DNA from: a bacterium
GTDB taxonomy: Bacteria; Actinomycetota; Acidimicrobiia; Acidimicrobiales; CATQHL01
Length of the DNA stretch: 10,873 nucleotides
Direction of reading: 5' to 3'
Assembly (NCBI GenBank): GCA_028819945.1
Contig: JAPPKQ010000334.1
Location: 1-10,873 of the forward strand
In this document: piece after piece, positions 486 to 10,873 of the stretch
How the letters are laid out: each line of letters starts with the position of its first letter
How positions within the stretch are numbered: the stretch's first letter is position 1
Notes under the pieces: generated by a model
The model's database searches: none
Told to the model about the DNA's origin: nothing
Seen by the model: the letters and a program-made list of their open reading frames with translations, nothing else
Made by a program: the position numbers and the translations under genes

Positions 486-1616
486 GTGAAGGCAGACGGA
501 CGCGCCCGCGGAGTCGCTCTCGCGACAGTTCTCGTGGCAGCGCTCGTGGCCTCGGCCTGCGCCGGCGGCGGGGGAGCGGGGGTCGCCAACGTCGCCACCG
601 GCACCACCGTCGCCGGTGTCGGGGCGGGGCCCGATCGGGTTCCGACCGAGACGACCGTCATCCGCCTGGCCCTGCCGCCCGACCCGGTCTGGCAGTGGCT
701 GGAGGACTCCGGCACACGCGCCGCCTGGGAGCGGGACCACAACATCCGCATCGACGTCAGCCATCCGTTCGACCAGTTCGCCGCGTTCGCCGGGGGTCAC
801 GCCGACGTGGTGGTCATCAACGTCCTGGACGTGCCGAAGTTCGTCTCCCAGCCGGGGCTCGAACCGGTGATACTCGGCAAGTACACGACCGACCGCAGCA
901 TCCTGGCGGTGCCGCGCGGCTCCCAGGCCGAGACCCTAGAGGATCTCGTGGATCGACGGATCGCCGTGGAGAGTTCAATCGCCTCGAGCCTGCTGTGGGC
1001 GCTCGTGGCCGACATCTTCTACGCCCTGGACTTCAGCGAGGGCAGCGCCGACTTCGACCTGGTGACCGTGGAGCCGGCCAGTGTGGCCGACCTGGTGATA
1101 CGGGGCGACGTGGACGCCTGCATCTGCACACCCGACTACAGCGTGCCGCTGCTCGTCTCGGGCCGGTTGCGGGCCCTCTATGACGGCATGTCCGCCTCGC
1201 AGCGCTACACGATCGCCATATTCGGCGGACAGGGCTTCGGCGGGGAGTCGGGGACCATCGCCGACGCCTTCGTCGCGGGCGCGGCGTGGAACGCGGCCAA
1301 CACGGAGGCGGCCGACGCCCTGTTGAGTCTGTGGGAGGAAGGTCTGGCCGCCTGGAGGCAGCACAAGGGGCAGATCGTGGCCGACTACCGGCATCTCTTC
1401 TCGGTGGAGAGTGAGGTCGAGGTCGCCTGGCTGACCGATTACGTGGAGGAGCACGACTGGTTCGTGCCGTCGGTCTACATCAGTCACCAGGAGGCCGAGA
1501 CGCACAGGTTCGCGTTCGACCGTCTGCGCGACATGGGTCTGGTGCCCGAGCAGGCAACGGTGCCCGAGATCAACATCGTCGATCCGGCGGCGGTGCCGGC
1601 GTCCTCGGGCGGATAG
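486..1616 (+). CDS. ABC transporter substrate-binding lipoprotein, NMT1/SsuA/TauA-like
   Basis: Product of 376 residues from a GTG start five bases after the preceding stop. It begins with a lipoprotein-type signal: basic start, hydrophobic stretch 10-23, and a lipobox-like A-S-A-C with Cys25 as the probable lipidated residue, followed by a Gly-rich linker. The body reads like a type II periplasmic binding protein of the NitT/TauT group: an initial strand (TTVIRLALPPDPVWQW), a 'GHADVVVINVLDVPKF' segment, 'LAVPRGSQAETLEDLVDRRIAV' as the usual second-lobe entry, and a later 'GDVDACICTPDY' segment. It is expected to sit on the outer face of the membrane and deliver a ligand to the two permeases encoded next. 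It is unusual that a second binding protein of a different fold class sits just upstream. The substrate (sulfonate, nitrate, thiamine precursor, riboflavin or other) cannot be told. Confidence 0.82.
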   Translation: MKADGRARGVALATVLVAALVASACAGGGGAGVANVATGTTVAGVGAGPDRVPTETTVIRLALPPDPVWQWLEDSGTRAAWERDHNIRIDVSHPFDQFAAFAGGHADVVVINVLDVPKFVSQPGLEPVILGKYTTDRSILAVPRGSQAETLEDLVDRRIAVESSIASSLLWALVADIFYALDFSEGSADFDLVTVEPASVADLVIRGDVDACICTPDYSVPLLVSGRLRALYDGMSASQRYTIAIFGGQGFGGESGTIADAFVAGAAWNAANTEAADALLSLWEEGLAAWRQHKGQIVADYRHLFSVESEVEVAWLTDYVEEHDWFVPSVYISHQEAETHRFAFDRLRDMGLVPEQATVPEINIVDPAAVPASSGG

Positions 1617-1627
1617 GGAGGTCGGAC

Positions 1628-2473
1628 GTGTCCACGGTGTCCACCGTCACCCCCGGCAGCGTCTCGGAGCTCTCCGCCAGGGAGCTGCGCCGGGCCGCCT
1701 GGTCGCGCTGGGGTTATCGCCTCAGCGTGGTCGCCGGCTGGGTGGTGTTCGTCGGCGTGTGGTACCTGGTGGCGCGCCTCGTCCTCACGCCCCAGCAGCT
1801 GCCGCAGCCCCACGTCGTGGCTGTCGAGGCGTGGGACGTGCTCCGCCTGCGGGAGTTCGGTGGCAACTTCCAGGCCAGCATCCTGCGGGTGGCCGCGGGG
1901 TTCCTGCTGGCGCTGCTGCTGAGCGTCGGCCTGGGCCTGCTGATCGCCTACAGCAGGTGGTGGCGCCGCCTGCTCGGCCGCGTCCTGCAGTTCGTCGTGA
2001 GTATCCCCACCGTGAGCTTCGCCGTCCTCTCGCTGATCGTGCTCGGCATCTCGCCGATGGGCCCCATCCTCAACACCATGATCGTGGCGACGCCGTACAT
2101 CACCACGAACCTCGCCCAGGGACTCACCGGTGTGGACCGCCGCCTGATCGTGATGAGCGAGTCCTTCGGCCGCACCCGTGCGCAGATCATCGTCGGCGTG
2201 CTGATCCCGTCGTCACTGCTGTCGATCCTCGGCGGCGCCCGCCTGGCGTTCGCCGTGGCCTGGCGCGTGGCGCTGCTCACCGAGATCTTCGCCTCCGCCG
2301 ACGGCATCGGCCTCCAGATCCGGCGCAGCTTCGAGAGCTACGACATCCAGGGGATGCTCGCCTGGGCGTTGCTGTTCATCGTGATCATGCTGCTGATCGA
2401 GAACCTGGTCCTCCGTCAGGTCGAGCGCCGGCTCTCCCGCTGGCGCACGCCGGCCACGGGGGTGGCGCCGTGA
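1628..2473 (+). CDS. ABC transporter permease 1 (SsuC/TauC-like)
   Basis: Product of 281 residues; the GTG start is preceded by a good ribosome binding site (GGGAGG at 1616-1621) and lies 11 bases after the previous stop. About six hydrophobic segments are visible, starting near residues 33-50, 77-99 and 110-130 and ending near 245-265. The cytoplasmic coupling loop that docks on the ATPase is clear at about residues 176-205: SESFGRTRAQIIVGVLIPSS followed by LLSILGGARLAFAVAW, the pattern of the BPD_transp_1 'EAA' loop in nitrate/sulfonate/taurine-type importers. It overlaps the next permease gene by four bases (GTGA), so translation is probably coupled and the two permeases made in equal amount. 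Family assignment is firm; substrate is not known. Confidence 0.9.
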   Translation: MSTVSTVTPGSVSELSARELRRAAWSRWGYRLSVVAGWVVFVGVWYLVARLVLTPQQLPQPHVVAVEAWDVLRLREFGGNFQASILRVAAGFLLALLLSVGLGLLIAYSRWWRRLLGRVLQFVVSIPTVSFAVLSLIVLGISPMGPILNTMIVATPYITTNLAQGLTGVDRRLIVMSESFGRTRAQIIVGVLIPSSLLSILGGARLAFAVAWRVALLTEIFASADGIGLQIRRSFESYDIQGMLAWALLFIVIMLLIENLVLRQVERRLSRWRTPATGVAP

Positions 2474-3354
2474 GCGGCATGGGCGCCCCGCAGGATCTCG
2501 GCGGATTCGGACCGTTCGACGTCCGGCCCACCGCTGAGGGTGCGACGATCAGGGAGCGCCTGCTGCGGTCGCCCCCGTTCATCGGTCTGCTGGCCCTCGC
2601 TCTGCTGCTGCTGATCTGGCAGTGGATCGCGTGGGTCAACACGCGTGTGCCCGGCATCGACGAGATCGTGCGGTTCATGGTCACCGAGATGTCCGGCGGT
2701 TCGCACGGCGGCGCGCTCACCGGTGAGTTCTGGGCGCCTCTGGCGACGAGCATGCAGCGCTACGCCGTCGGCCTCGCCATCGGCGTTCCCATCGGCGCGG
2801 CGCTGGGCCTGCTCATCGGGGCCTTCCGCTGGGCCCGGGGTCTGTTCAACGACACGGTGCTGGTGCTGCTGGCGCTGCCGGCGGTCGTCTGGGCGTTCCT
2901 GGCCGCGCTGTGGTTCGGTCTGTCCGCGTGGGGTCCGATCCTGGCGGTGGTCCTGACCGTCGTGCCGTTCATGGCGGTCAACCTCAGCGCCGGTGTGCGC
3001 AACATCGAACCGGGTCTCATCCAGATGTCCCGATCGTTCGACGTGCCGTTCGGGCGGCGCTTCGTCCACCTGCTGTTCGGCGGGAGCCTCCCCAGCGGTT
3101 TCACCGGGCTCCGGCTCGCCTTCATGACCGGATGGAACAGCCTGTTGATCGTGGAATGGTTCGGCGCCACCTCCGGGGTGGGCTGGCGCGCCCGCTTCTG
3201 GTACGACGCTCTGCGCTATCCCGGCTTCGTGGGTTGGATCTTCCTGTTCGTGATCCTGATCACGCTGCTCGACCGGCTGCTGCTGAGCCCGCTGGAGCGG
3301 CGCGCCTTCCGGTGGAACCAGCAGCCCACGCTCACCTTCGAGGAGGAGCTGTGA
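2470..3354 (+). CDS. ABC transporter permease 2 (SsuC/TauC-like)
   Basis: Product of 294 residues. I place the start at GTG 2470, which overlaps the stop of permease 1 (GTGA 2470-2473); ATG 2479 is an alternative three codons in. The frame is open far upstream, but that part lies over permease 1 and is not coding. A hydrophilic N-terminal tail of about 35 residues precedes TM1 (IGLLALALLLLIWQWIAW); further hydrophobic segments follow, including YAVGLAIGVPIGAALGLLIG and a pair around VLVLLALPAVVWAFLAALW. The coupling loop is recognisable as SRSFDVPFGRRFVHLLFGGS then LPSGFTGLRLAFMTGWN. It is clearly divergent from permease 1, so the transporter is probably a heterodimer in the membrane. It is 78 bp from the ATPase gene. 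Confidence 0.9.
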   Translation: MSGMGAPQDLGGFGPFDVRPTAEGATIRERLLRSPPFIGLLALALLLLIWQWIAWVNTRVPGIDEIVRFMVTEMSGGSHGGALTGEFWAPLATSMQRYAVGLAIGVPIGAALGLLIGAFRWARGLFNDTVLVLLALPAVVWAFLAALWFGLSAWGPILAVVLTVVPFMAVNLSAGVRNIEPGLIQMSRSFDVPFGRRFVHLLFGGSLPSGFTGLRLAFMTGWNSLLIVEWFGATSGVGWRARFWYDALRYPGFVGWIFLFVILITLLDRLLLSPLERRAFRWNQQPTLTFEEEL

Positions 3355-3355
3355 C

Positions 3356-3383
3356 CGCCCGGAGGGCCGCACCCCGCCGGGCG
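3356..3383. other. Inverted repeat between permease 2 and ATPase genes
   Basis: CGCCCGG at 3356-3362 pairs with CCGGGCG at 3377-3383 around a 14-base loop; an alternative pairing CCGGAG 3359-3364 with CTCCGG 3384-3389 overlaps it. There is no T-tract, so it is not an obvious intrinsic terminator. It could lower expression of the ATPase or stabilise the upstream message, or be chance in GC-rich DNA. A -10-like TACCAT at 3401-3406 follows, which might give the ATPase gene its own transcript. Confidence 0.25.
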
Positions 3384-3432
3384 CTCCGGCTACCGACCGC
3401 TACCATCGACCCATCGGAGAGGCAGGGATGAC

Positions 3433-4200
3433 ATGGCGACCGTGCTCATAGAGGACCTCACCAAGGTCTACCCACCGACCATCAACAACCCCAAGCAGGT
3501 GCAGGCCCTCGGCGGGCTCAGCATGTCGATCACGGGCAACGTCTTCGTCGCCGTCGTCGGGCCCTCCGGCAGCGGCAAGACCACCCTGCTGAACATCGTC
3601 GCCGGCGTCGAGTTGCCCACCTCGGGTTCGGTGCGCGCCCTGCAGGAGGGTGTGCCCGCCCGGGTGGGCTACGTGTTCCAGGAGCCCCGGTTGCTGCCGT
3701 GGCGCACCGTCGTGGACAACATGCTGTACGTGCAGGACCGCAAGTCGGACCGCAGCCGGCGCGAGGCCGAGTTCTACCTGCAGATGGTGGGCCTCGGCGA
3801 CGTGGCCGACCTGTACCCGTCGCAGCTCTCGGGGGGGATGCAGCAGCGTGTCGGCATCGCCCGGGCGTTCCTCGTGAATCCCGACGTTCTGCTGCTCGAC
3901 GAGCCGTTCAGCCACCTCGACGCCCTCACCGGACGGTCGTTGCGGGACTACCTGCAGCGCATCTGGTTGCAGAGCCGCAAGACCGCCCTGTTCGTCACCC
4001 ACGACGTGACCGAGGCGGTGGAGCTGGCCGACCGCATCGTCATGCTGCGACCCGGGGGCGTGACCTACGACGACATCTCCATCGACCTGCCCCGGCCGCG
4101 CCGCCACGGGGACCCCGCCGTCCGCGACATACAGGACGAGGTGCTGCGCCGCTTCGACGCCATGGGGGCGGCCGTCCGCTTCGGCGCCGAGGGCGTCTAG
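3433..4200 (+). CDS. ABC transporter ATP-binding protein (SsuB/TauB-like)
   Basis: Product of 255 residues, the usual size for this family. All nucleotide-binding motifs are intact: Walker A GPSGSGKTT at 43-51, Q-loop Gln83 in YVFQEPRLLPW, signature LSGGMQQR at 132-139, Walker B VLLLDE at 152-157 with the catalytic Glu157, D-loop SHLD at 160-163, and the switch His190 in FVTHD. The 'FQEPRLLPW' form of the Q-loop is typical of the nitrate/sulfonate/taurine group. It should dimerise under the two permeases and power import. The ATG start has a purine-rich stretch (GGAGAGGCAGG) a few bases upstream. The stop TAG shares CTAG 4197-4200 with the stop of the convergent gene on the other strand. Confidence 0.95.
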   Translation: MATVLIEDLTKVYPPTINNPKQVQALGGLSMSITGNVFVAVVGPSGSGKTTLLNIVAGVELPTSGSVRALQEGVPARVGYVFQEPRLLPWRTVVDNMLYVQDRKSDRSRREAEFYLQMVGLGDVADLYPSQLSGGMQQRVGIARAFLVNPDVLLLDEPFSHLDALTGRSLRDYLQRIWLQSRKTALFVTHDVTEAVELADRIVMLRPGGVTYDDISIDLPRPRRHGDPAVRDIQDEVLRRFDAMGAAVRFGAEGV

Positions 4201-4496
4201 GCCGCGCTCTCCTCGGTTGCCGCGGCGGCGGCCGGGTCTCGGCCCTCCAAGCGGGCGATCCGCTCCCCTTGGCCTCCGATCACCGTGACCACCTCGTCGA
4301 ATCGCTGGTCGACCCTCTGGAACCGCTCGTCGACCCTCTGGAACCGCTCGTCGATCTTGTCGAATCGCTGGTCGACCCTCTGGAACCGCTCGTCGATCTT
4401 GTCGAACCGCTGGTTCATATCGATGCGCATCCAAGTGATGCTGCCGGCGATGAGCAACCCGCTCAAGCCGACCAGGGATGCGATGATCGCCTCCAT
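4197..4496 (-). CDS. Small membrane-anchored coiled-coil protein with heptad repeats
   Basis: I prefer the ATG at 4496, giving 99 residues; a TTG at 4547 in the same frame would add 17 residues but has no better start signal, and the 4496 ATG sits six bases after a plausible -10 box. One hydrophobic helix (residues about 4-22, IIASLVGLSGLLIAG) is followed by an uninterrupted series of seven-residue units alternating QRFDKID and ERFQRVD (about residues 26-67), then GGQGERIARLEG and an Ala/Glu-rich end. Position-specific Phe and Ile/Val every seven residues predicts a parallel coiled coil, probably cytoplasmic or periplasmic depending on topology. Similar short proteins are known as hypotheticals in many bacteria; no function can be given. 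It converges on the ABC ATPase gene. Confidence 0.72.
   Translation of the reverse strand: MEAIIASLVGLSGLLIAGSITWMRIDMNQRFDKIDERFQRVDQRFDKIDERFQRVDERFQRVDQRFDEVVTVIGGQGERIARLEGRDPAAAAATEESAA
4297..4422. repeat. Six tandem 21-bp units encoding coiled-coil heptads
   Basis: Units start at 4297, 4318, 4339, 4360, 4381 and 4402. Each is 21 bp, so unit number can change without breaking the frame of the minus-strand gene. Two alternating versions exist (one encoding QRFDKID or QRFDEVV, one encoding ERFQRVD); several copies are identical or nearly so, pointing to recent unit duplication. The last unit is degraded. Confidence 0.85.
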
Positions 4497-4501
4497 GTCG
4501 A

Positions 4502-4613
4502 CAGTCTGCCACAGCCTGATGCTGATTGCAATGCGATTTTCTGACAATGGATGATATTTCGAGTAGGTGATAGTTCATATCTATCGCGACCCGGGTGCCG
4601 ACCTGGCAGACTG
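4502..4613. repeat. 10-bp inverted repeats flanking an AT-rich patch
   Basis: CAGTCTGCCA at 4502-4511 is perfectly complementary to TGGCAGACTG at 4604-4613. The roughly 90 bp between them are strikingly AT-rich for this window (around 4525-4590), and contain a smaller GATAG/CTATC inverted pair near 4569-4586. It lies between the divergent coiled-coil gene and prepilin-like gene and could be a regulatory region or a small insertion; no target-site duplication is evident. Confidence 0.4.
4503..4531 (-). promoter_or_regulatory. Probable leaderless promoter for the coiled-coil gene
   Basis: On the minus strand TTGCAA (plus coordinates 4526-4531) is followed after exactly 17 bases by CAGACT (4503-4508), then six bases, then the ATG at 4496. 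The spacing is ideal for a housekeeping sigma factor and the short distance to ATG matches the leaderless arrangement of the 5619 and 8483 genes. Both boxes are imperfect, so the call is moderate. Confidence 0.4.
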
Positions 4614-4785: not shown

Positions 4786-5246
4786 ATGAGCAGAGACAGG
4801 CACACCATGCGCGCAGCCCGACGAACCGACAGCGCGATGACGACCCTGGAATGGTTGATGATCGTGGGCGCCGTGTCCGGGTTGGCCGCCTTGGCGGTGG
4901 TGCTGGTGGCGGGGCTGGTGGACGACACGGCGGAGGGTGTGGCCGGCGGGGCGACCACCAACCCCGCCGCGGCGCAGGTCGCCGCGGGCAGGTCGCCGAG
5001 GAGGCCCGCAGGGCGGAGGGCGCCGGCGAGGGATTCGACACCTGGGGAGAGTGGAGCCGCTACTACACCGCCCGCTGCACCCGGCTGGCCGTTCTGTACA
5101 GCACCATCGAGGTCGAGGTGAGCGCAGAGTTCAAGCCGCCGCCGGGGAAGGTAGGCGACAAGCCGACCCCTGAGGAGCTGCGGGACGCGCACGAGGCTGG
5201 TCCCGAGCCGGGCAAGCCGCAGATTCTCTGCACGGTCGCCGGATAG
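4786..5246 (+). pseudogene. Prepilin-like protein with paired-cysteine head, frameshifted
   Basis: The first half reads from ATG 4786 (or ATG 4807) as a basic leader, the processing site S-A/M-T-T-L-E-W with Ala instead of Gly at -1, and a hydrophobic helix (LMIVGAVSGLAALAVVLV). After codon 4984-4986 the original frame degenerates into Arg/Pro-rich nonsense, while the frame one base earlier continues with QVAEEARRAE, the WGEWSRYYTARC motif and the end ILCTVAG. Against its closest relative (minus strand, 8356-7874) the two halves join with exactly the right spacing if one base is restored in GGGC at about 4986-4989; the repaired product is about 153 residues with two Cys, one in the motif and one near the end. 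As it stands it is broken, unless the missing base is a sequencing error in a G/C run. Confidence 0.75.
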
Positions 5247-5261
5247 GGCCAGGCCCCGCGC

Positions 5262-5375
5262 TCAGGGCGGACCCTTTCGGGTGACTTCACAGTGGACTTG
5301 CGCCAGCGCGGTGAACCCGGCGGCGGCCGCGATCAGCAGCAGCCACTCGTCGCTGGCCAGCCCCTCTGTCCTCGA
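5262..5375 (-). pseudogene. Remnant of a prepilin-like gene (processing site and helix only)
   Basis: The minus strand encodes SRTEGLASDEWLLLIAAAAG then FTALAQVHCEV and stops at 5262-5264. This is nearly the same as residues 16 onwards of the 7234 product (GERGLASHEWLLLIAAAAS, then FTALAV). By hand alignment about 53 of 63 bases match between 5301-5363 (minus) and 7282-7344 (plus). The G-L-A-S-D-E-W processing motif is intact, but the frame has no usable start codon upstream and the head domain is gone, so it is a broken relic in inverted orientation to the intact copies. Confidence 0.7.
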
Positions 5376-5417
5376 GGCCCGCGACGGCCGCCGGGAAACC
5401 GACGCGGTATTCGTCCG

Positions 5418-5597
5418 GCCGAGCGTTGTACGAAACGAGCCGCATGGTGCCGCCCTTGTGGGTGATCTTGCGCTGCTCCTCCACGAGGCAGATCACCGGA
5501 TGCGGGGTGCGGGTTCGAACTCGGTGGAGTGCGCCTCGGCCACCGAGAGGTCGGCGTCGATGAGGCGCACGTACTTGCCGACCATCCCGACGGGCGC
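5418..5597 (-). pseudogene. CTP synthase (pyrG) relic, internally deleted and frameshifted
   Basis: Read on the minus strand from about 5597, the sequence gives PVGMVGKYVRLIDADLSVAE, matching the start of the CTP synthase glutaminase domain (family pattern VGKYVxLPDAYLSVxEA). It runs straight on into HSTEFEPAP and, after a shift of frame near 5500-5510, HPVICLVEEQRKITHKGGTM then RL, matching the later family segment (STEFDPxTxHPVIxLxxEQ...GGTMRLG). In an intact enzyme these two blocks are separated by a long stretch that includes the catalytic Cys of the glutaminase; that stretch, the synthetase domain and the C-terminus are all missing. After MRL the similarity ends. It cannot be functional. 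The stop caused by the shift is TGA at 5493-5495. Confidence 0.72.
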
Positions 5598-5605
5598 CGC
5601 GGCGG

Positions 5606-5611
5606 TAGCAT
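5606..5611 (+). promoter_or_regulatory. -10 box of a leaderless promoter for the prepilin-like trio
   Basis: TAGCAT is followed by seven bases (CCGACCC) and then ATG 5619, the spacing expected when transcription starts at the A of the start codon. No Shine-Dalgarno sequence precedes the ATG. A clear -35 at the right distance is not seen. Confidence 0.5.
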
Positions 5612-5618
5612 CCGACCC

Positions 5619-6635
5619 ATGAAGGCGGTCGCCCATGCGCCTGCCCGCCGGCGGCTGGCGCGCCGCAACCAGCGGGGCGCGTTCGCCGCCGACTGGCTGC
5701 TGGTTATCGCTGCCGTCATGGGACTCGGCGGGCTGTCCGCCTACCTCGTGGAGGACTACGTCGAGTCCCTCACCCTGGAACGCTCCGCGGAGCAGCGCGA
5801 CCTCACCGCCTACCTCGACGACGGCCGCGTGCTCAACCTCGAGCACCGCACGGTCCGCCACGCCGCCGCGGCGGCCGCCGCCGTCGTCGAGGAGGCTCTG
5901 TCGGTCGATCCGGACGACCCGCGCTTCCCCCGCTGGTCCGACTGGACCGCCCACTTCGACGCCAAGTGCCGGCGCTTGGCGCTCAGCTACAGCGAGCTCG
6001 ACGGTTTCGCGGTCGCTTCGCTCTTCCTGCCGCCGCTGCGGCCGGAGAACAAACCCACCAAGGCGGAATACACGAGGGAGCCCTCCAGATCCCGAGAGCC
6101 GCTCACGGCCGCCGGCCTGGCCGACGCCGACTCCACCCCCTACGAGGGCGGCGCGACGGTCGCCGACCTCGCACTGCTGGCCAACCGGAAGAAGATCATG
6201 ACGGGGGTCAACCCCGACCGCAAGAGATTCGCAGGGCTCCAGTCGGCGCAAAACGCTGTGTTCAAGGGCGCCGTGGCCTGGTGCTTCCTTCCGCGGTCGG
6301 TGTCGGCGGTCACCGCCGGCGGTCAGCTGGACGAGGACAACCTGCGCGTGCAGGCCGCCCGGACCTACGCCGCAGGCGTCGGGATCTCCGCGCGGACCGA
6401 CGACCCGGAGAACCCGGGCGACAAGGCCCTGCCCGGCACCTGGCGCAACTGGGAGACCTACTGGGACGCCAAGTGCCGGAGAACCGCGGAGGTCTTCCGC
6501 GATTTGCGGGGCTTCACCGTGGACTCTCGGTTCGAGAAGCCTGGCGCCGTGCCCAGTCCGGACGATCTGATCAGCGATCGGAGCGGGCGCAAGTTCGCGG
6601 ACGTCACCGCTGTCTGCGAGGTCGTGGCGGCGTGA
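5619..6635 (+). CDS. Prepilin-like protein with duplicated paired-cysteine head domain
   Basis: Product of 338 residues, about twice the size of its relatives. I chose ATG 5619 because of the -10 box seven bases upstream; the open frame reaches back to 5529 but through the pyrG relic. Layout: basic leader 1-20 (ends RRNQRG), processing site G20/A-F-A-A-D25-W with Asp where Glu is usual, helix about 26-44, head domain 1 with WSDWTAHFDAKC (Cys117) and closing Cys222 (AVAWCF), then head domain 2 with WRNWETYWDAKC (Cys286) and closing Cys333 (AVCEV). These are its only four cysteines, which fits two disulfides outside the cell. Each domain has a V-x-x-x-F strand ending in Pro after the motif. Its GTGA overlap with the next gene implies coupled translation. 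Probably a filament subunit or tip protein; function is inferred. Confidence 0.8.
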   Translation: MKAVAHAPARRRLARRNQRGAFAADWLLVIAAVMGLGGLSAYLVEDYVESLTLERSAEQRDLTAYLDDGRVLNLEHRTVRHAAAAAAAVVEEALSVDPDDPRFPRWSDWTAHFDAKCRRLALSYSELDGFAVASLFLPPLRPENKPTKAEYTREPSRSREPLTAAGLADADSTPYEGGATVADLALLANRKKIMTGVNPDRKRFAGLQSAQNAVFKGAVAWCFLPRSVSAVTAGGQLDEDNLRVQAARTYAAGVGISARTDDPENPGDKALPGTWRNWETYWDAKCRRTAEVFRDLRGFTVDSRFEKPGAVPSPDDLISDRSGRKFADVTAVCEVVAA

Positions 6636-7237
6636 GTCCACCGGGGCGGGCGCCGGCGCCGCGGCGCCGGTCGCGCCGGCATGCGGGCCTGGCGACTCTC
6701 GAATGGCTGCTGGTGGTGTCGGTCTCGGCCCTGCTGGCCGCGCTGGTCATCGCCCACGTGCAGCGCAACGTGGACCGCGGCGTGACCCTGATCGCCGACG
6801 CCTCCGACGCCGGACTCGGCGCGCCGGGCAGCCTGGACCGGGCGCAGGCGCTGGCCGACGAGCTGGCCTACCGGGTGCAGGTGGCGTCCCTGCAGTACGA
6901 CCCCCGCGACTACCGCTTCCAGGACCCGTCGTTCTGGAGCGACCACTTCAGCACCCGTTGCCGGCGGATTCGGGAGATCTTCAGCGACATCGCCGCCGAG
7001 GACGTTCAGGTCACCGTCGAGACCGACTTCCGGTTCGGCGCGATTGAGATCGCGGGTCAGCGGATCAACCCCCGTGAGATCGGCGAGATCCCCTGGGTCT
7101 TCGGCGAGCAGGGCCACGACCCGGACCTTTTGAGACGAGGTGTCTTCGACCAATCGGAGCGAGGCCGGTATGTCCCTGCACAGACGGTCTGCCAGGTCTT
7201 CCTGAGCCATGGGGGATCGCGGACTCCGCCGCCATGA
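6632..7237 (+). CDS. Prepilin-like protein with paired-cysteine head
   Basis: Product of 201 residues from GTG 6632, which overlaps the upstream stop (GTGA 6632-6635); the frame is open further back, but only as a shadow of the 5619 gene. Basic leader 1-19, then a perfect type IV/Flp processing site G19/L-A-T-L-E24-W, helix about 25-42 (LLVVSVSALLAALVIAHV). The head has FWSDHFSTRC with Cys110 and a late Cys187 (QTVCQV); these are the only two cysteines. Between them the strand-like VQVTVETDF is followed by an insertion rich in charged residues (about 135-180). The C-terminus extends beyond the last Cys by 14 residues, more than in its relatives. Middle gene of the coupled trio. Confidence 0.8.
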   Translation: MSPPGRAPAPRRRSRRHAGLATLEWLLVVSVSALLAALVIAHVQRNVDRGVTLIADASDAGLGAPGSLDRAQALADELAYRVQVASLQYDPRDYRFQDPSFWSDHFSTRCRRIREIFSDIAAEDVQVTVETDFRFGAIEIAGQRINPREIGEIPWVFGEQGHDPDLLRRGVFDQSERGRYVPAQTVCQVFLSHGGSRTPPP

Positions 7238-7764
7238 CCCCCGGGGGCGGCTCGCCGTCGAGGCGGGGGCGCGGCGAGCGAGGCCTCGCCAGCCACGAGT
7301 GGCTGCTGCTGATCGCGGCGGCGGCATCCTTCACGGCGCTGGCGGTCTTCGTGCTGGCCGAGACCGTCGACGACGCCGTGGCGCGCGCAGGCGCCGACGA
7401 TCCGGCCAGCCGGGCGTCGGCCGAGCGCGACGCTGCGCTGGTGGAGAACGAGGCGGTCACCATCGTGCCGGCCGACTGGAAGATGCGGCTCTGGGGCGAG
7501 TGGGCGGATTACTACGCCCGGCGGTGCCGCAACGTCCAGAACGCCTACCGGGCCCACGGCTACACGGTGGTCACCGCCGTCGACACCGACCTGCCGCCGT
7601 TCAAGCCCCCGAGCGACAAGAGCGACGAGGATCGCATGATCAAGGTGATCCCGGGACCGCCGGAGGTGAGAGCCTTCGAAGTCGGCGTCGCCGAGGCGCT
7701 GGCCCACGCCGACCCTCTTCCTCCCGCCCGCGGCAAGCCGCAGGCGCGCTGCGAGATCGAATAG
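7234..7764 (+). CDS. Prepilin-like protein with paired-cysteine head
   Basis: Product of 176 residues from ATG 7234, overlapping the previous stop (ATGA 7234-7237). Arg/Gly-rich leader 1-17, perfect processing site G17/L-A-S-H-E22-W, helix about 23-41 (LLLIAAAASFTALAVFVLA). The head contains LWGEWADYYARRC with Cys98, then TVVTAVDTDLPPFKPP, and ends ARCEIE with Cys173, three residues from the C-terminus; no other cysteines. The helix segment is almost duplicated in the inverted relic at 5262-5375. Last gene of the trio; the palindromic repeat copy B about 30 bp downstream may end the transcript. Confidence 0.8.
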   Translation: MTPGGGSPSRRGRGERGLASHEWLLLIAAAASFTALAVFVLAETVDDAVARAGADDPASRASAERDAALVENEAVTIVPADWKMRLWGEWADYYARRCRNVQNAYRAHGYTVVTAVDTDLPPFKPPSDKSDEDRMIKVIPGPPEVRAFEVGVAEALAHADPLPPARGKPQARCEIE

Positions 7765-7795
7765 TGCCCTGAGCGATCCGGCGCACACTCTGCCC

Positions 7796-7857
7796 CGTCA
7801 TTCCGGCGAAGGCCTGCCCCGGACTCGATCCGGGGCCGGAATCCAGGCCCTGGCCAC
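7796..7857. repeat. Dispersed palindromic repeat, copy B
   Basis: A 62-bp copy of the element at 4641-4703. Here the inner arms are perfect: GCCCCGGA and TCCGGGGC around a CTCGA loop; the outer ATTCCGGC pairs with GCCGGAAT. It lies between two convergent prepilin-like genes, so besides being a mobile or REP-like repeat it could act as a two-way transcription stop, although no T-tract follows. Confidence 0.78.
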
Positions 7858-7873
7858 CCGACTGGCGATGCGG

Positions 7874-8356
7874 CTACGGATCCTCGATCTCGCATTTGAT
7901 CTGAGCGGGTTCGCCCGACGCCGTCGGCTTCGACTTGACTGCGGCTGCCAGCTCGGCGGCGGTCGGGGCCTGGACGCCGAGTCCGTAGGGCGCCTCGAAC
8001 TCAGCTTCGACCTCCACCGGGACGCTGCTGTAGAGGATCGCCAGCCGGCTGCAGCGGGCCGTGAAGTAGCGGTCCCACTCGCTCCAGGTCGCGAACGGTC
8101 CGCTGCCCGAGGTGTCGATGGTGCGGGCCTCCTGTTCGATCTGGCTTGCCGTGGCGACCGCGGCGCTGCGGTTGGTGGTGACACCGCCGCCGGTCTGCTC
8201 GGCGGTCTCGTCCACGAGCCCCGTGACGAGCACCACCGCCAGGGCGGCCAGTCCCGACACCGCCCCCACGATCATGAGCCACTCGAGCGTGGTCATGCCT
8301 CGGGTGTCCTGGAGTCGCCGCCGCGGCGGCCAGCTTCGCCCGCCGGGAGCCTTCAT
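7874..8356 (-). CDS. Prepilin-like protein with paired-cysteine head, close relative of the broken 4786 gene
   Basis: Product of 160 residues from ATG 8356 on the minus strand. The same frame is open to beyond 9900, but that part lies over the TadG-like and secreted-protein genes and has no pilin features, so it is a shadow. A GAGGAG is found about 14 bases before the ATG, rather far. Basic leader 1-20 ends TRG, then the perfect processing site G20/M-T-T-L-E25-W and helix LMIVGAVSGLAALAVVLV, nearly residue-for-residue that of the 4786 gene. The head has WSEWDRYFTARC with Cys102, VEVEAEFEAP, and KCEIEDP at the end with Cys155; only two cysteines. It is convergent with the trio and divergent from the TadG-like gene, so it has its own promoter in 8357-8482, which I could not pin down. 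Confidence 0.82.
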   Translation of the reverse strand: MKAPGGRSWPPRRRLQDTRGMTTLEWLMIVGAVSGLAALAVVLVTGLVDETAEQTGGGVTTNRSAAVATASQIEQEARTIDTSGSGPFATWSEWDRYFTARCSRLAILYSSVPVEVEAEFEAPYGLGVQAPTAAELAAAVKSKPTASGEPAQIKCEIEDP

Positions 8357-8448: not shown

Positions 8449-8475
8449 TTGACAGCGGGTGTGCGGCGTTAGGCT
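8449..8475 (+). promoter_or_regulatory. Leaderless sigma70-type promoter of the TadG-like gene
   Basis: A perfect -35 TTGACA at 8449-8454 is followed after 15 bases by TAGGCT at 8470-8475, then seven bases, then GTG 8483. The 15-base spacer is a little short; the -10 and its distance to the start codon match the 5606 box. This is the best promoter in the window and it decides the start codon of the downstream gene. Confidence 0.7.
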
Positions 8476-8482
8476 CCGGACG

Positions 8483-9208
8483 GTGCGCACAGAAGGTCGT
8501 CGTCGACGCGTCCCGCACCGCCTGAGGCGCGGTCAACGCGGCGGCGCCATCAGCCTCTGGGTGGTGCTGATGGTGCCGGTTCTGCTGGGGTTGGGGTTCG
8601 CGGCCTTGGCCGTCCCCCAGCGCATGGCCGCCGAGAACACCATGGCGAGCGCATCCTCGGACCTGGCCACCATGGCGGTGGTCTGGCGCGACACCACCGG
8701 CATCCTGCAGGGCCCCCTCGACGGCTTCCCGCCCGACTGCTTCAGCGACGACGCCGAGGCGGCGGCCGCCTGCCACGCCTTCTGGGGTGTGCTGGCCCGC
8801 GACCTCAACAGCCAGGGCATCGATATCTTCTCGGTCCGGGGGTTCTACAGCGACTCGTACTACACCTCGCCGGACGCCGCGCTGCGACCGCCGTGCCGCA
8901 TCTACGGAAGCACCCTGCTGCTCGACGCCAACCATGTCGCCGTCGCCGCCGACTGGTACGGCAACTGGGCCGCCCGGCAACTGTGGCCCGACGGCATCCG
9001 CATGGCCTCGGAGTCGGTGGGCCACTTGAACGTGCTGTTCGTCGAGACATCCGGCGCCCCGGCCACTCCCGAGGAGAAGGGGAACGAGTGCGGGGACCGG
9101 TTCGACATGGTCGACGACGACGGGGTGGCGCACTGGCTGTCGGAGCAACGACCCGAGGCGCGCCGGCTCTCGGAGTCGCTGGCGTTCCGCAACACCTTCG
9201 AGGGCTGA
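8483..9208 (+). CDS. TadE/TadG-like membrane-anchored pseudopilin-type protein
   Basis: Product of 241 residues from GTG 8483, chosen because a promoter -10 ends seven bases upstream; a start further up at 8459 would lie inside the promoter. The N-terminus is Arg-rich (1-19), followed by RGGAISLWVVLMVPVLLGLG and a hydrophobic helix to about 44, then AVPQRMAAENTMASASSDLA, the layout of TadE/TadG-family proteins of Tad (Flp) pilus systems, in which a helical stretch rich in Ala, Ser and small residues follows the single helix. The remaining 170 residues are soluble, with four cysteines (Cys86, Cys97 and two later) and several Trp/Tyr, and are expected to lie outside the membrane. It belongs in context with the prepilin-like genes upstream and the secreted protein downstream. 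Family assignment rests on the N-terminus only. Confidence 0.65.
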   Translation: MRTEGRRRRVPHRLRRGQRGGAISLWVVLMVPVLLGLGFAALAVPQRMAAENTMASASSDLATMAVVWRDTTGILQGPLDGFPPDCFSDDAEAAAACHAFWGVLARDLNSQGIDIFSVRGFYSDSYYTSPDAALRPPCRIYGSTLLLDANHVAVAADWYGNWAARQLWPDGIRMASESVGHLNVLFVETSGAPATPEEKGNECGDRFDMVDDDGVAHWLSEQRPEARRLSESLAFRNTFEG

Positions 9209-9274: not shown

Positions 9275-10873
9275 GTGCGGCTGCTGGTGGTCCCCGGGCT
9301 GCTGGCGGCGTCTCTGGCGCTGCCCCTCGTGGCGTCGAGCACCGCGCAGGCGCAGACGGTCACACCGGTCACGGTGACCACGTCGGTGTCGGTGAACCCG
9401 CGACCCGACCACGTCCGTCTCGGCTGGGTTCCCCAGGGGGACGGCCCCAGTCCCGAGTCGGACTTCTCGGTGCGCGACAACGATGAGGTCACCGTCGAAC
9501 GCTGCGCGGTGCGGCCCGACGGCACCGAGGACTGCGCGGTGCTGACCGCTTCCTGCGGCGCCGTGTTCGAGGACATGGAGGCCCTCTTCGAGATCCTCGA
9601 CGAACTGTCGGTGAAGCTTAAGGCCGGCTGGGAGTCCCAGGACGACGCCGGCGACGGGCTGCCGGCGGACTACCCGCTGCTTCCCGCGGCCGGCGACTAC
9701 AGCAGCATCGGCATGGCCCATTTCCTGCAGGCCGCCTGGGGGCTGCTGCCGCTGGAGTACATGTTCCTGGATTGGGACATGGCCTTCCCTCCCCCCAATC
9801 GGATCAACAGTCCGTCGACCCTGGCGACCACTCTCAATACCCGACTCGAGGGAACGGGTCGCTCCCGCTACCGCTACGAGGCGATCCTCCGACACCACAC
9901 GACGGGCGCCTGGAACGTCCGCACCAAGCACAGCGCCGATCGCCAGATCGCCGCCGGCGGCGCCGAGGCCACCGAGGTGGCGGCCTGGATCACCGGCAAC
10001 GAGGTCGGCGTGCCGGAGTTCCCGGTCTTCACCCTGGGCGCCCTGCTCCGCCCGGCGACGCTCGCCGTCCGCCCGACGCCCGACCCGTCGTCGAGTTTCA
10101 GTAAGGCGCTGGACCGGCTCACCGGATCCAGGTCGTTCGCGGACTGGAAGGCCGATCTGCAGAGCAAGCCGCTGAAGGAGGTGGCCGAGGCGCTGGGCGA
10201 CCGCCTCAGCGCCGAGGACAGCTCTCGGCTGGAAGCGGTGCCGGAGACGGACGAGGGCAGGGCCGTACTCGACGGCCTCAAGGAGAGGTTCAATGCGGCC
10301 GAGGGCCTAGCGGGGAAGCTGGCCGGCTCGCACCACTCCGACGCGCTGCCCTACCAGGTCCGCGCCGTGCTGGCCTACCTGAAGCTGATCATCGAGTCGC
10401 CCGATGACCGCGCCGGCGGCTTCGGCGGCGGCGCTCGCTCCTACGAGGGCATCCACCTGATGCCGTTCCACGTCCTCTTCGAGGCGCCCGAGTTGGTTCC
10501 GGGACTGCTGGAGCTGTTCGGGCGGACGCGCCCGGAGTACCGATCGGTCCGGGACGTCCGCTTCGGCGGCGCCGGCCCCGGCACCTTCTACGAGCAGCGC
10601 GCCGAGTCGCTGCTGGCGGACATGTTCGAGTACTGCGCCACGCAGTTGGTGCTCCACGACGAGCAGTACGTCCGCTGGGACGACCCTTACGCCGGAGGTT
10701 CCGCCGCGACCGGGCGCTACGCCAGCTTCGAGCTCGCACGCCAGGACCCCCTCACGTCCCGCACCGGCGCCTCCGGGGTCAGCCTCGATAGGTCCCCCGC
10801 CTCGCCGGCAACAGGCTCGATGCTGCGCCTGCGGGCGAGGGGGACCGAGCTCGGCGAGACGCGGCTGTGGTAC
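9275..10873 (+). CDS. Large secreted protein of unknown function (5' part, runs off the window)
   Basis: The frame is open from GTG 9275 to the last base, giving 533 residues without a stop. It is in the same frame as the preceding gene, and no other ATG, GTG or TTG lies between that stop and 9275, so the start is well fixed. Residues 1-26 form a clear Sec signal peptide (RLLVVPGLLAASLALPLVAS, cleavage expected after AQA26). The mature part begins with a Thr/Val-rich strand region (TVTPVTVTTSVSVNP), then a Cys-containing block (ERCAV, EDCAV, ASCGA), then mostly helical and charged sequence; a fourth Cys occurs in FEYCAT. No transmembrane segment or known domain is recognised in what is visible. 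Position after the TadG-like gene suggests an exported partner of the same surface apparatus, but this is inference. Confidence 0.75.
   Translation, partial: MRLLVVPGLLAASLALPLVASSTAQAQTVTPVTVTTSVSVNPRPDHVRLGWVPQGDGPSPESDFSVRDNDEVTVERCAVRPDGTEDCAVLTASCGAVFEDMEALFEILDELSVKLKAGWESQDDAGDGLPADYPLLPAAGDYSSIGMAHFLQAAWGLLPLEYMFLDWDMAFPPPNRINSPSTLATTLNTRLEGTGRSRYRYEAILRHHTTGAWNVRTKHSADRQIAAGGAEATEVAAWITGNEVGVPEFPVFTLGALLRPATLAVRPTPDPSSSFSKALDRLTGSRSFADWKADLQSKPLKEVAEALGDRLSAEDSSRLEAVPETDEGRAVLDGLKERFNAAEGLAGKLAGSHHSDALPYQVRAVLAYLKLIIESPDDRAGGFGGGARSYEGIHLMPFHVLFEAPELVPGLLELFGRTRPEYRSVRDVRFGGAGPGTFYEQRAESLLADMFEYCATQLVLHDEQYVRWDDPYAGGSAATGRYASFELARQDPLTSRTGASGVSLDRSPASPATGSMLRLRARGTELGETRLWY

Follow-up and report, generated by a model that had tools for sequence, protein, structure and literature searches.

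Prepilin-like proteins with a two-cysteine head, probable subunits of a Tad-type machine, in Acidimicrobiia

We analyzed a 10,873-nucleotide stretch of DNA (hereafter the window), which is the whole of contig JAPPKQ010000334.1 (C424) of an Acidimicrobiales draft genome (2.62 Mb in 485 contigs, 76% complete). Between an ABC-transporter-like operon and the gene for a large protein, it carries a cluster of genes, G1 to G5, for prepilin-like proteins that combine a pilin-type leader with a cysteine-containing C-terminal head (headed prepilins). The original prediction described five such genes and one relic; the relic and four intact genes are present, but G1 (positions 4786 to 5246, plus strand) is split by a frameshift near 4989 and is not an open gene. 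Its two pieces match successive parts of the family profile, the leader piece (4795-4989) corresponding to profile positions 6-69 and the head piece (4989-5240) to positions 70-155, and a relative free of this split exists (P0011). Because the leader and head of G1 lie in different frames, the window is best counted as four intact genes, one split gene and one relic. What the relic (5295-5384, minus strand; profile match E = 5.9e-4) retains of a headed prepilin is the leader with the N-terminal helix; its leader is by eye nearest to that of G4, and its frame ends in a stop shortly afterwards. Beside it, two minus-strand frames between 5400 and 5610 resemble pieces of one more broken gene.

As predicted, several different subunits are encoded side by side. 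G2 (5619-6635, plus strand) encodes a double-headed prepilin of 338 amino acids with four cysteines, followed on the same strand by the single-headed G3 (6632-7237, 201 amino acids) and G4 (7234-7764, 176 amino acids); each of the latter two overlaps its predecessor by four bases, so that the three genes look like one operon. Counterparts of G2 and G3 occur in two other loci (L017 and L094), and a counterpart of G4 occurs in L017, where Q replaces the acid of the leader site. G5 (7874-8356, minus strand, 160 amino acids) is the window member closest to a conserved pilin that adjoins the peptidase gene in other genomes.

The leader pattern [GA]-x4-[ED]-W is present in all five genes and the relic (AMTTLEW in G1, GAFAADW in G2, GLATLEW in G3, GLASHEW in G4, GMTTLEW in G5 and GLASDEW in the relic). 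The tryptophan after the acid had been put forward as a shared trait distinguishing these leaders from classic Flp pilins; it occurs in all six leaders but is not specific, and since EW is also found in a headless Tad pilin of the same genome (P0024), the tryptophan alone is no marker of the headed family. Likewise, every one of the six heads in the five window genes carries the exact motif W-x2-[HY]-[FYW]-x2-[RK]-C, but its strict form occurs in just 27 of the 70 wider members counted below, which makes it a subgroup feature, whereas the cysteine pair is general. Of the V-x-V-x3-F stretch before proline, described as common to all five genes, exact copies occur only in G1, G3 and G5, and the copy in G3 is not followed by proline (by eye). 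The last cysteine is followed by E, Q or T and then I or V in all five genes, and the expected two cysteines per head are borne out by the counts for the mature parts: two each in G3, G4 and G5, two in the G1 head piece and four in G2. With G5 as query against its own genome, the other window members score from 1.3e-18 (G1 head piece) to 2.8e-9 (G3) and are therefore alike beyond chance; the second G2 head alone scores just 0.004.

For the wider family, 76 leader-bearing records were gathered and six were dropped from the cysteine count (the headless pilin P0024 on contig C394, two records cut by contig ends, a frame with masked bases, the G1 leader piece and the relic), leaving 70 members, 69 of them distinct, with near-identical ones from related genomes included. 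The mature part holds two cysteines in 60 members, four in nine (seven of them double-headed) and six in one; an odd number occurs in none of the 70. The site is preceded by G in 68 members and by A in two, and reads EW in 67 and DW in three, a pattern that the count itself required. Another 15 matches do not have the standard site: four are pieces or unclear, and in 11 the acid is replaced by Q, S or G, ten of these having two cysteines and the other, which is frame-shifted, four. Mature two-cysteine members span 103-182 amino acids (median 136), and double-headed ones reach 365. The only invariant columns of a 44-row alignment are W26, L27 and both cysteines; as every row has two cysteines, the invariance of the latter is in part a product of selection.

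At E <= 0.01, 32 of the 44 aligned members match DUF4244 (Pfam PF14029), and none matches TadE (PF07811) or Tad (PF13400). Within the window, G5 (20.9 bits) and the G1 leader (16.2 bits) fall below the DUF4244 cut-off of 27 bits, G2 to G4 give no DUF4244 match, and no window member matches Flp_Fap; the headless P0024 reaches 26.1 bits against DUF4244, just under the cut-off, and matches Flp_Fap weakly. No Pfam, NCBIfam or PHROGs model covers the head at cut-off, in agreement with the original view that it belongs to no named family; among NCBIfam models, GspH is weakly matched by one of the 44 members. The prepilin-like cluster, with its Flp/DUF4244-like leaders and two-cysteine heads, is real.

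In an AlphaFold model of G5 (m46745134ea0f; mean pLDDT 84.5, pTM 0.64), ten-residue blocks over residues 61-160 have pLDDT values of 88-98, against 54-77 for the leader, the first helix and the linker. The model places helices at 22-49, 58-79 and 91-108 and strands at 115-121 and 152-158, giving the head a predicted helix-helix-strand-strand order, with the third helix holding Cys102 and the last strand Cys155; the V-x-V-x3-F stretch coincides with strand 115-121. A divergent paralogous group encoded after TadC is modeled with the same order of elements and with cysteines in the third helix and last strand. A comparison of profiles relates this group to the G5 type (hhalign probability 99.7), the alignment running from the leader to shortly beyond the first cysteine. 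A helix-plus-sheet pilin fold with the two cysteines in contact had been anticipated; the model does give a helix and a folded head with cysteines in the last helix and strand, but not the beta-sheet of a classic pilin. No solved structure is convincingly matched, with no Foldseek match at E <= 0.001 for models that have two short strands, and no solved pilin is among the fold matches, which does not by itself exclude a relation to pilins. From the model, the cysteine of the last helix may pair with that of the last strand as a disulfide, for which the even cysteine number of all 70 counted members and the like position of the pair in both models give indirect support.

A search of ~5.8 billion proteins with G5 returned 13 entries, two of them the window's own. 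Our genome collection yielded 34 loci, of which 27 lie in records titled Acidimicrobiia, Acidimicrobiales or Acidimicrobiaceae, six in records titled only 'bacterium' and one in a record titled 'Acidobacteria'. All nine whole genomes of the window's family give matches, which in G299 and G303 cover the leader only. At least 15 of 397 genomes of the order match at E <= 1e-8, in three families (G299 again by leader only), and at least 4 of 296 genomes of the class match at E <= 0.001, with a strong match only in the window's own; these two counts are lower bounds, as few candidates per genome were scored. A single same-genus genome, G300, holds 20 matching stretches. The family looks narrow, with many copies per genome. 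Further copies in the window's genome are a single-headed gene on contig C201 and a double-headed gene on contig C450 adjoining mraZ. The latter (L014, C450:223-981) lies directly upstream of mraZ (MraZ by Pfam) and, by eye, of a cell-wall/division cluster.

The genes for a Tad (type IVc) machine lie beside the family in its relatives, where the original prediction had suggested looking for motor genes and a peptidase. By tblastn over the 34 loci, we found TadA in 22, TadB in 23, TadC in 22, RcpC in 22, TadZ in 21 and an A24 prepilin peptidase in 12, together with three partner groups, c1 (23 loci), c3 (21) and c9 (14). The fetched stretch of L017 includes no TadA, and the contig of G300 to which it belongs carries a full locus: counterparts of G2, G3, G4 and G5, a TadZ-like gene, c1, the large protein and a headed pilin are followed by c9, c3, a small coiled-coil gene, the A24 peptidase, RcpC, TadZ, TadA, TadB and TadC. 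In examples, Pfam cut-offs are passed by TadA (T2SSE), TadB (T2SSF), two A24 peptidases and the SAF domain of RcpC. Carriers entirely devoid of a prepilin peptidase or assembly ATPase, which would have told against pilins, are contradicted by these loci. The c3 proteins of L017 and L044 have a TadE domain above the Pfam cut-off plus a Calx-beta domain, and c3 proteins with Calx-beta domains are possible tip adhesins. Proteins of this TadE type range from ~150 to >2100 residues (L044:13747-20174, L018:12502-16500).

Two genes of the window itself belong to this wider neighborhood. The first (8459-9208, plus strand; start codon uncertain) encodes a TadE/G-like protein of group c1 with a sub-cut-off match to Pfam Tad (E = 0.23). 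The second (9275-10873, plus strand) encodes the N-terminus of a large protein (group c15) that is probably exported, and runs off the contig; the window piece aligns to residues 56-563 of a 1434-residue L017 protein, and the first protein of C201 to residues 562-1431. Because these pieces (window 10800-10873 and the start of L015 on C201) abut on one relative's large protein, C201 very probably follows the window contig. Read across this join, the window's locus would very probably hold the remainder of the large protein, then a further headed pilin and a TadE-like gene, ordered as in L017.

Pilins of the Flp/Tad group (Flp_Fap, PF04964; DUF4244) share with the headed family the leader, the cleavage site and the N-terminal helix, and they too are coded with TadA, TadB, TadC, RcpC and TadZ, often with an A24 peptidase. 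The Tad pre-pilin listed for Bifidobacterium, next to TadA, TadB and TadZ, is a DUF4244 protein (PMC11418510). However, Flp pilins are described as fully helical proteins of 50-80 residues (PMC12075869) and Tad pilins as devoid of a globular domain, for which a special hydrogen-bond network may compensate (PMC11067988), whereas the headed family is longer and has a predicted alpha/beta head. We place the family as a variant of Tad pilins because its gene content is that of a Tad machine, even though the description of Flp pilins as short and headless fails for it. Type IVa and IVb pilins and type II pseudopilins have a lollipop layout, a helix with a head whose cysteine pair ends near the C-terminus. 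The likeness to them is one of layout only; the head of the present family is predicted as two helices and two short strands. Among open-licence PMC papers, searched mostly by title, no title on the headed family was found under DUF4244, Tad/Flp pili, Acidimicrobiia or headed Flp pilins; sponge-associated UBA5794 genomes are reported to have neither Type IVa genes nor capE (PMC12008989).

Collectively, these data lead us to propose, with a probability of about 0.72, that the genes encode prepilins of a dedicated Tad machine, with an N-terminus of the Flp/DUF4244 type and a C-terminal head that Flp pilins do not have. The family itself, its motifs, cysteine pattern, gene neighborhood and predicted fold are what the analysis shows; its members are most likely Tad-machine pilins that have gained a disulfide head. 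Each prepilin would comprise an N-terminus with leader, a cut following G or A, in most cases an acid at +5 and a hydrophobic assembly helix, followed by a C-terminal head of ~60-150 residues, and would be inserted in the membrane. The A24 peptidase, which many relatives encode within the locus itself, would then remove the leader, as site and gene suggest, and the head would fold as helix-helix-strand-strand outside the membrane, with the cysteines of its last helix and last strand probably paired. Judging from gene content, TadA, TadB and TadC would assemble the subunits into a filament, in which roles in the shaft and in adhesion may likewise be proposed.

Several observations weigh against this proposal. 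There is no TadA or peptidase within the window, and the window's draft genome, at its 76% completeness, has no close copy of the TadA found with headed pilins (head-type TadA), the best match being 37% identical; G298 (83% complete), which has heads, also has no head-type TadA. The overall distribution of head-type TadA nevertheless speaks for the proposal: five of the seven window-family genomes with head-reaching matches have it, at 73-100% identity in four genomes and 49% in the fifth, and both genomes with leader-only matches are without it. Ten of the 34 loci have none of the nine Tad genes searched. One of these, L046, shares a contig with L041, which has Tad genes; in three others (L033, L039 and L040), and in L038 with partial Tad genes, double-headed members adjoin a protein group, c10, in which RCC1 repeats (RCC1_2, Pfam) are confirmed for one member only (L040:1476-3155). 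TadC, TadZ, c1, c9, the large protein and a third c3 protein (L020) gave no Pfam match, and the identity of TadC and TadZ consequently rests on homology and position. Replacement of the acid by Q, S or G in at least 11 members is fine for minor subunits and unexpected for a main one, and the invariance of the cysteine columns in two of our alignments (A5 and A6) is partly selected because their rows are all two-cysteine members. Finally, genomes with head-type Tad loci contain further TadA genes and, in some, a headless pilin elsewhere.

This last point underlies the best-surviving alternative, which agrees with our proposal at its core and differs on the shaft: the headed pilins would be only minor or tip subunits, and the shaft would be built of a headless Flp-like pilin from a different Tad locus elsewhere in the genome. 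The window's genome has such a locus on C394, with the 81-residue headless P0024 (and a third Tad-like locus on C445). A second TadA, 37% identical to the head type, is present in all nine genomes of the family, and in both other genomes tested (G300 and G303) it is confirmed as C394-like (90%). Known Tad tips are described as consisting of minor pilins, with Tad diversity residing in TadE/F/G-type tips (PMC12075869). Yet the head-type loci have their own TadA, TadB, TadC, RcpC and often peptidase, and a leader profile, followed by a general prepilin scan, revealed no intact headless pilin in 24 pieces of them; the general scan gave three matches, two to headed pilins truncated at contig ends and one to a stretch inside another gene. 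As a control, the same scan found the headless pilin in five of six pieces, missing L016 (C445), whose short pilin does not have the acid. This L016 protein, pilin-like and without the acid at +5, has two cysteines near its C-terminus. In all seven genomes tested from two other families, P0024 matches fall at leaders that the headed profile also finds, one of them (G475:C1:900060) not traced to its end; G459 and G570, two of the seven, have a different headless pilin in another locus, and two more genomes, G428 and G541, have weak Flp_Fap candidates. As far as these scans reach, the loci with headed pilins encode no other pilins of their own, and a pilin borrowed from another locus is possible. 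We regard a shaft of borrowed pilins as a substantial possibility but not the favored one, and the original suggestion that the family comprises minor pilins only is doubtful, as the scans of head-type loci turned up no headless pilin to serve as the major one.

If the headed pilins do form the shaft of their own machine, as we propose, the G5 type is the better candidate for its main subunit. Across 105 pairs of loci with TadA identities of 40-97% (from 136 pairs; some loci come from one genome), head identity averages 54% for the G5 type and 32% for the post-TadC pilin, and the G5-type head is the more conserved in 98 of the 105 pairs, although the post-TadC value is lowered by variation in linker length. 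The absence of a headless pilin from the scanned pieces, the nearby peptidase in 12 of 34 loci and this head conservation make the G5 type likelier as main subunit than the other headed pilins, which would be minor. The assignment of the conserved G5-type pilin as main subunit is nonetheless tentative; there is an even chance that minor or tip roles, probably in adhesion, fall to the remaining headed pilins, to the double-headed one and to TadE-like proteins bearing Calx-beta or other large ectodomains.

In a second alternative, the proteins would serve as pseudopilins in a secretion device, derived from a Tad system, that expels large partner proteins and does not form a surface pilus. The many headed subunits of differing size within one locus and the large exported proteins (c15, c3) alongside would fit such a device, but the combination of a TadE-type helix with a Calx-beta domain in the c3 proteins of L017 and L044 suits a filament tip better than a secreted cargo, and we consider this reading unlikely. 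TadE/TadF/TadG-type tips and the KilLMN tips of Myxococcus resemble the headed family in being headed and pilin-like, with predicted disulfides, modular ectodomains and several paralogous sets per genome, and are described as TadE/F/G homologues with beta-stranded heads (PMC12075869). That the family consists of ordinary minor pilins of this type under another name, to which its globular heads in Tad loci and the single weak GspH match might point, is very improbable given a leader that resembles DUF4244 and matches TadE in no aligned member, and its coexistence with separate TadE-like proteins in the same loci.

Upstream of the headed prepilins, the plus strand of the window (486-4200) carries an apparent ABC transporter operon (binding protein, two permeases and ATPase), by eye like small-molecule uptake systems. 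Between the two, on the minus strand (4197-4547), lies a gene for a small protein with a possible membrane anchor and a repeating coiled-coil, which resembles others by eye only; similar small coiled-coil proteins occur near headed pilins in L029, L035, L044, L045 and L093:15880-16242.

Among type IV pili, the Tad branch has been described as having pilins with no globular head (PMC11067988). There is a nearly even chance that some Acidimicrobiia Tad pili have a main shaft subunit with a disulfide-locked alpha/beta head; a headless lineage would then have re-evolved the lollipop layout, using a head of unrelated origin, and expanded it to many paralogues in each genome. Should a Tad machine indeed handle pilins with heads, it would provide a test of the bulk that the motor and the filament lattice tolerate, and would bear on the origin of pilin heads. 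The family also accounts for a set of unannotated genes, and its presence can mark a Tad subtype within a little-studied lineage of actinobacteria.

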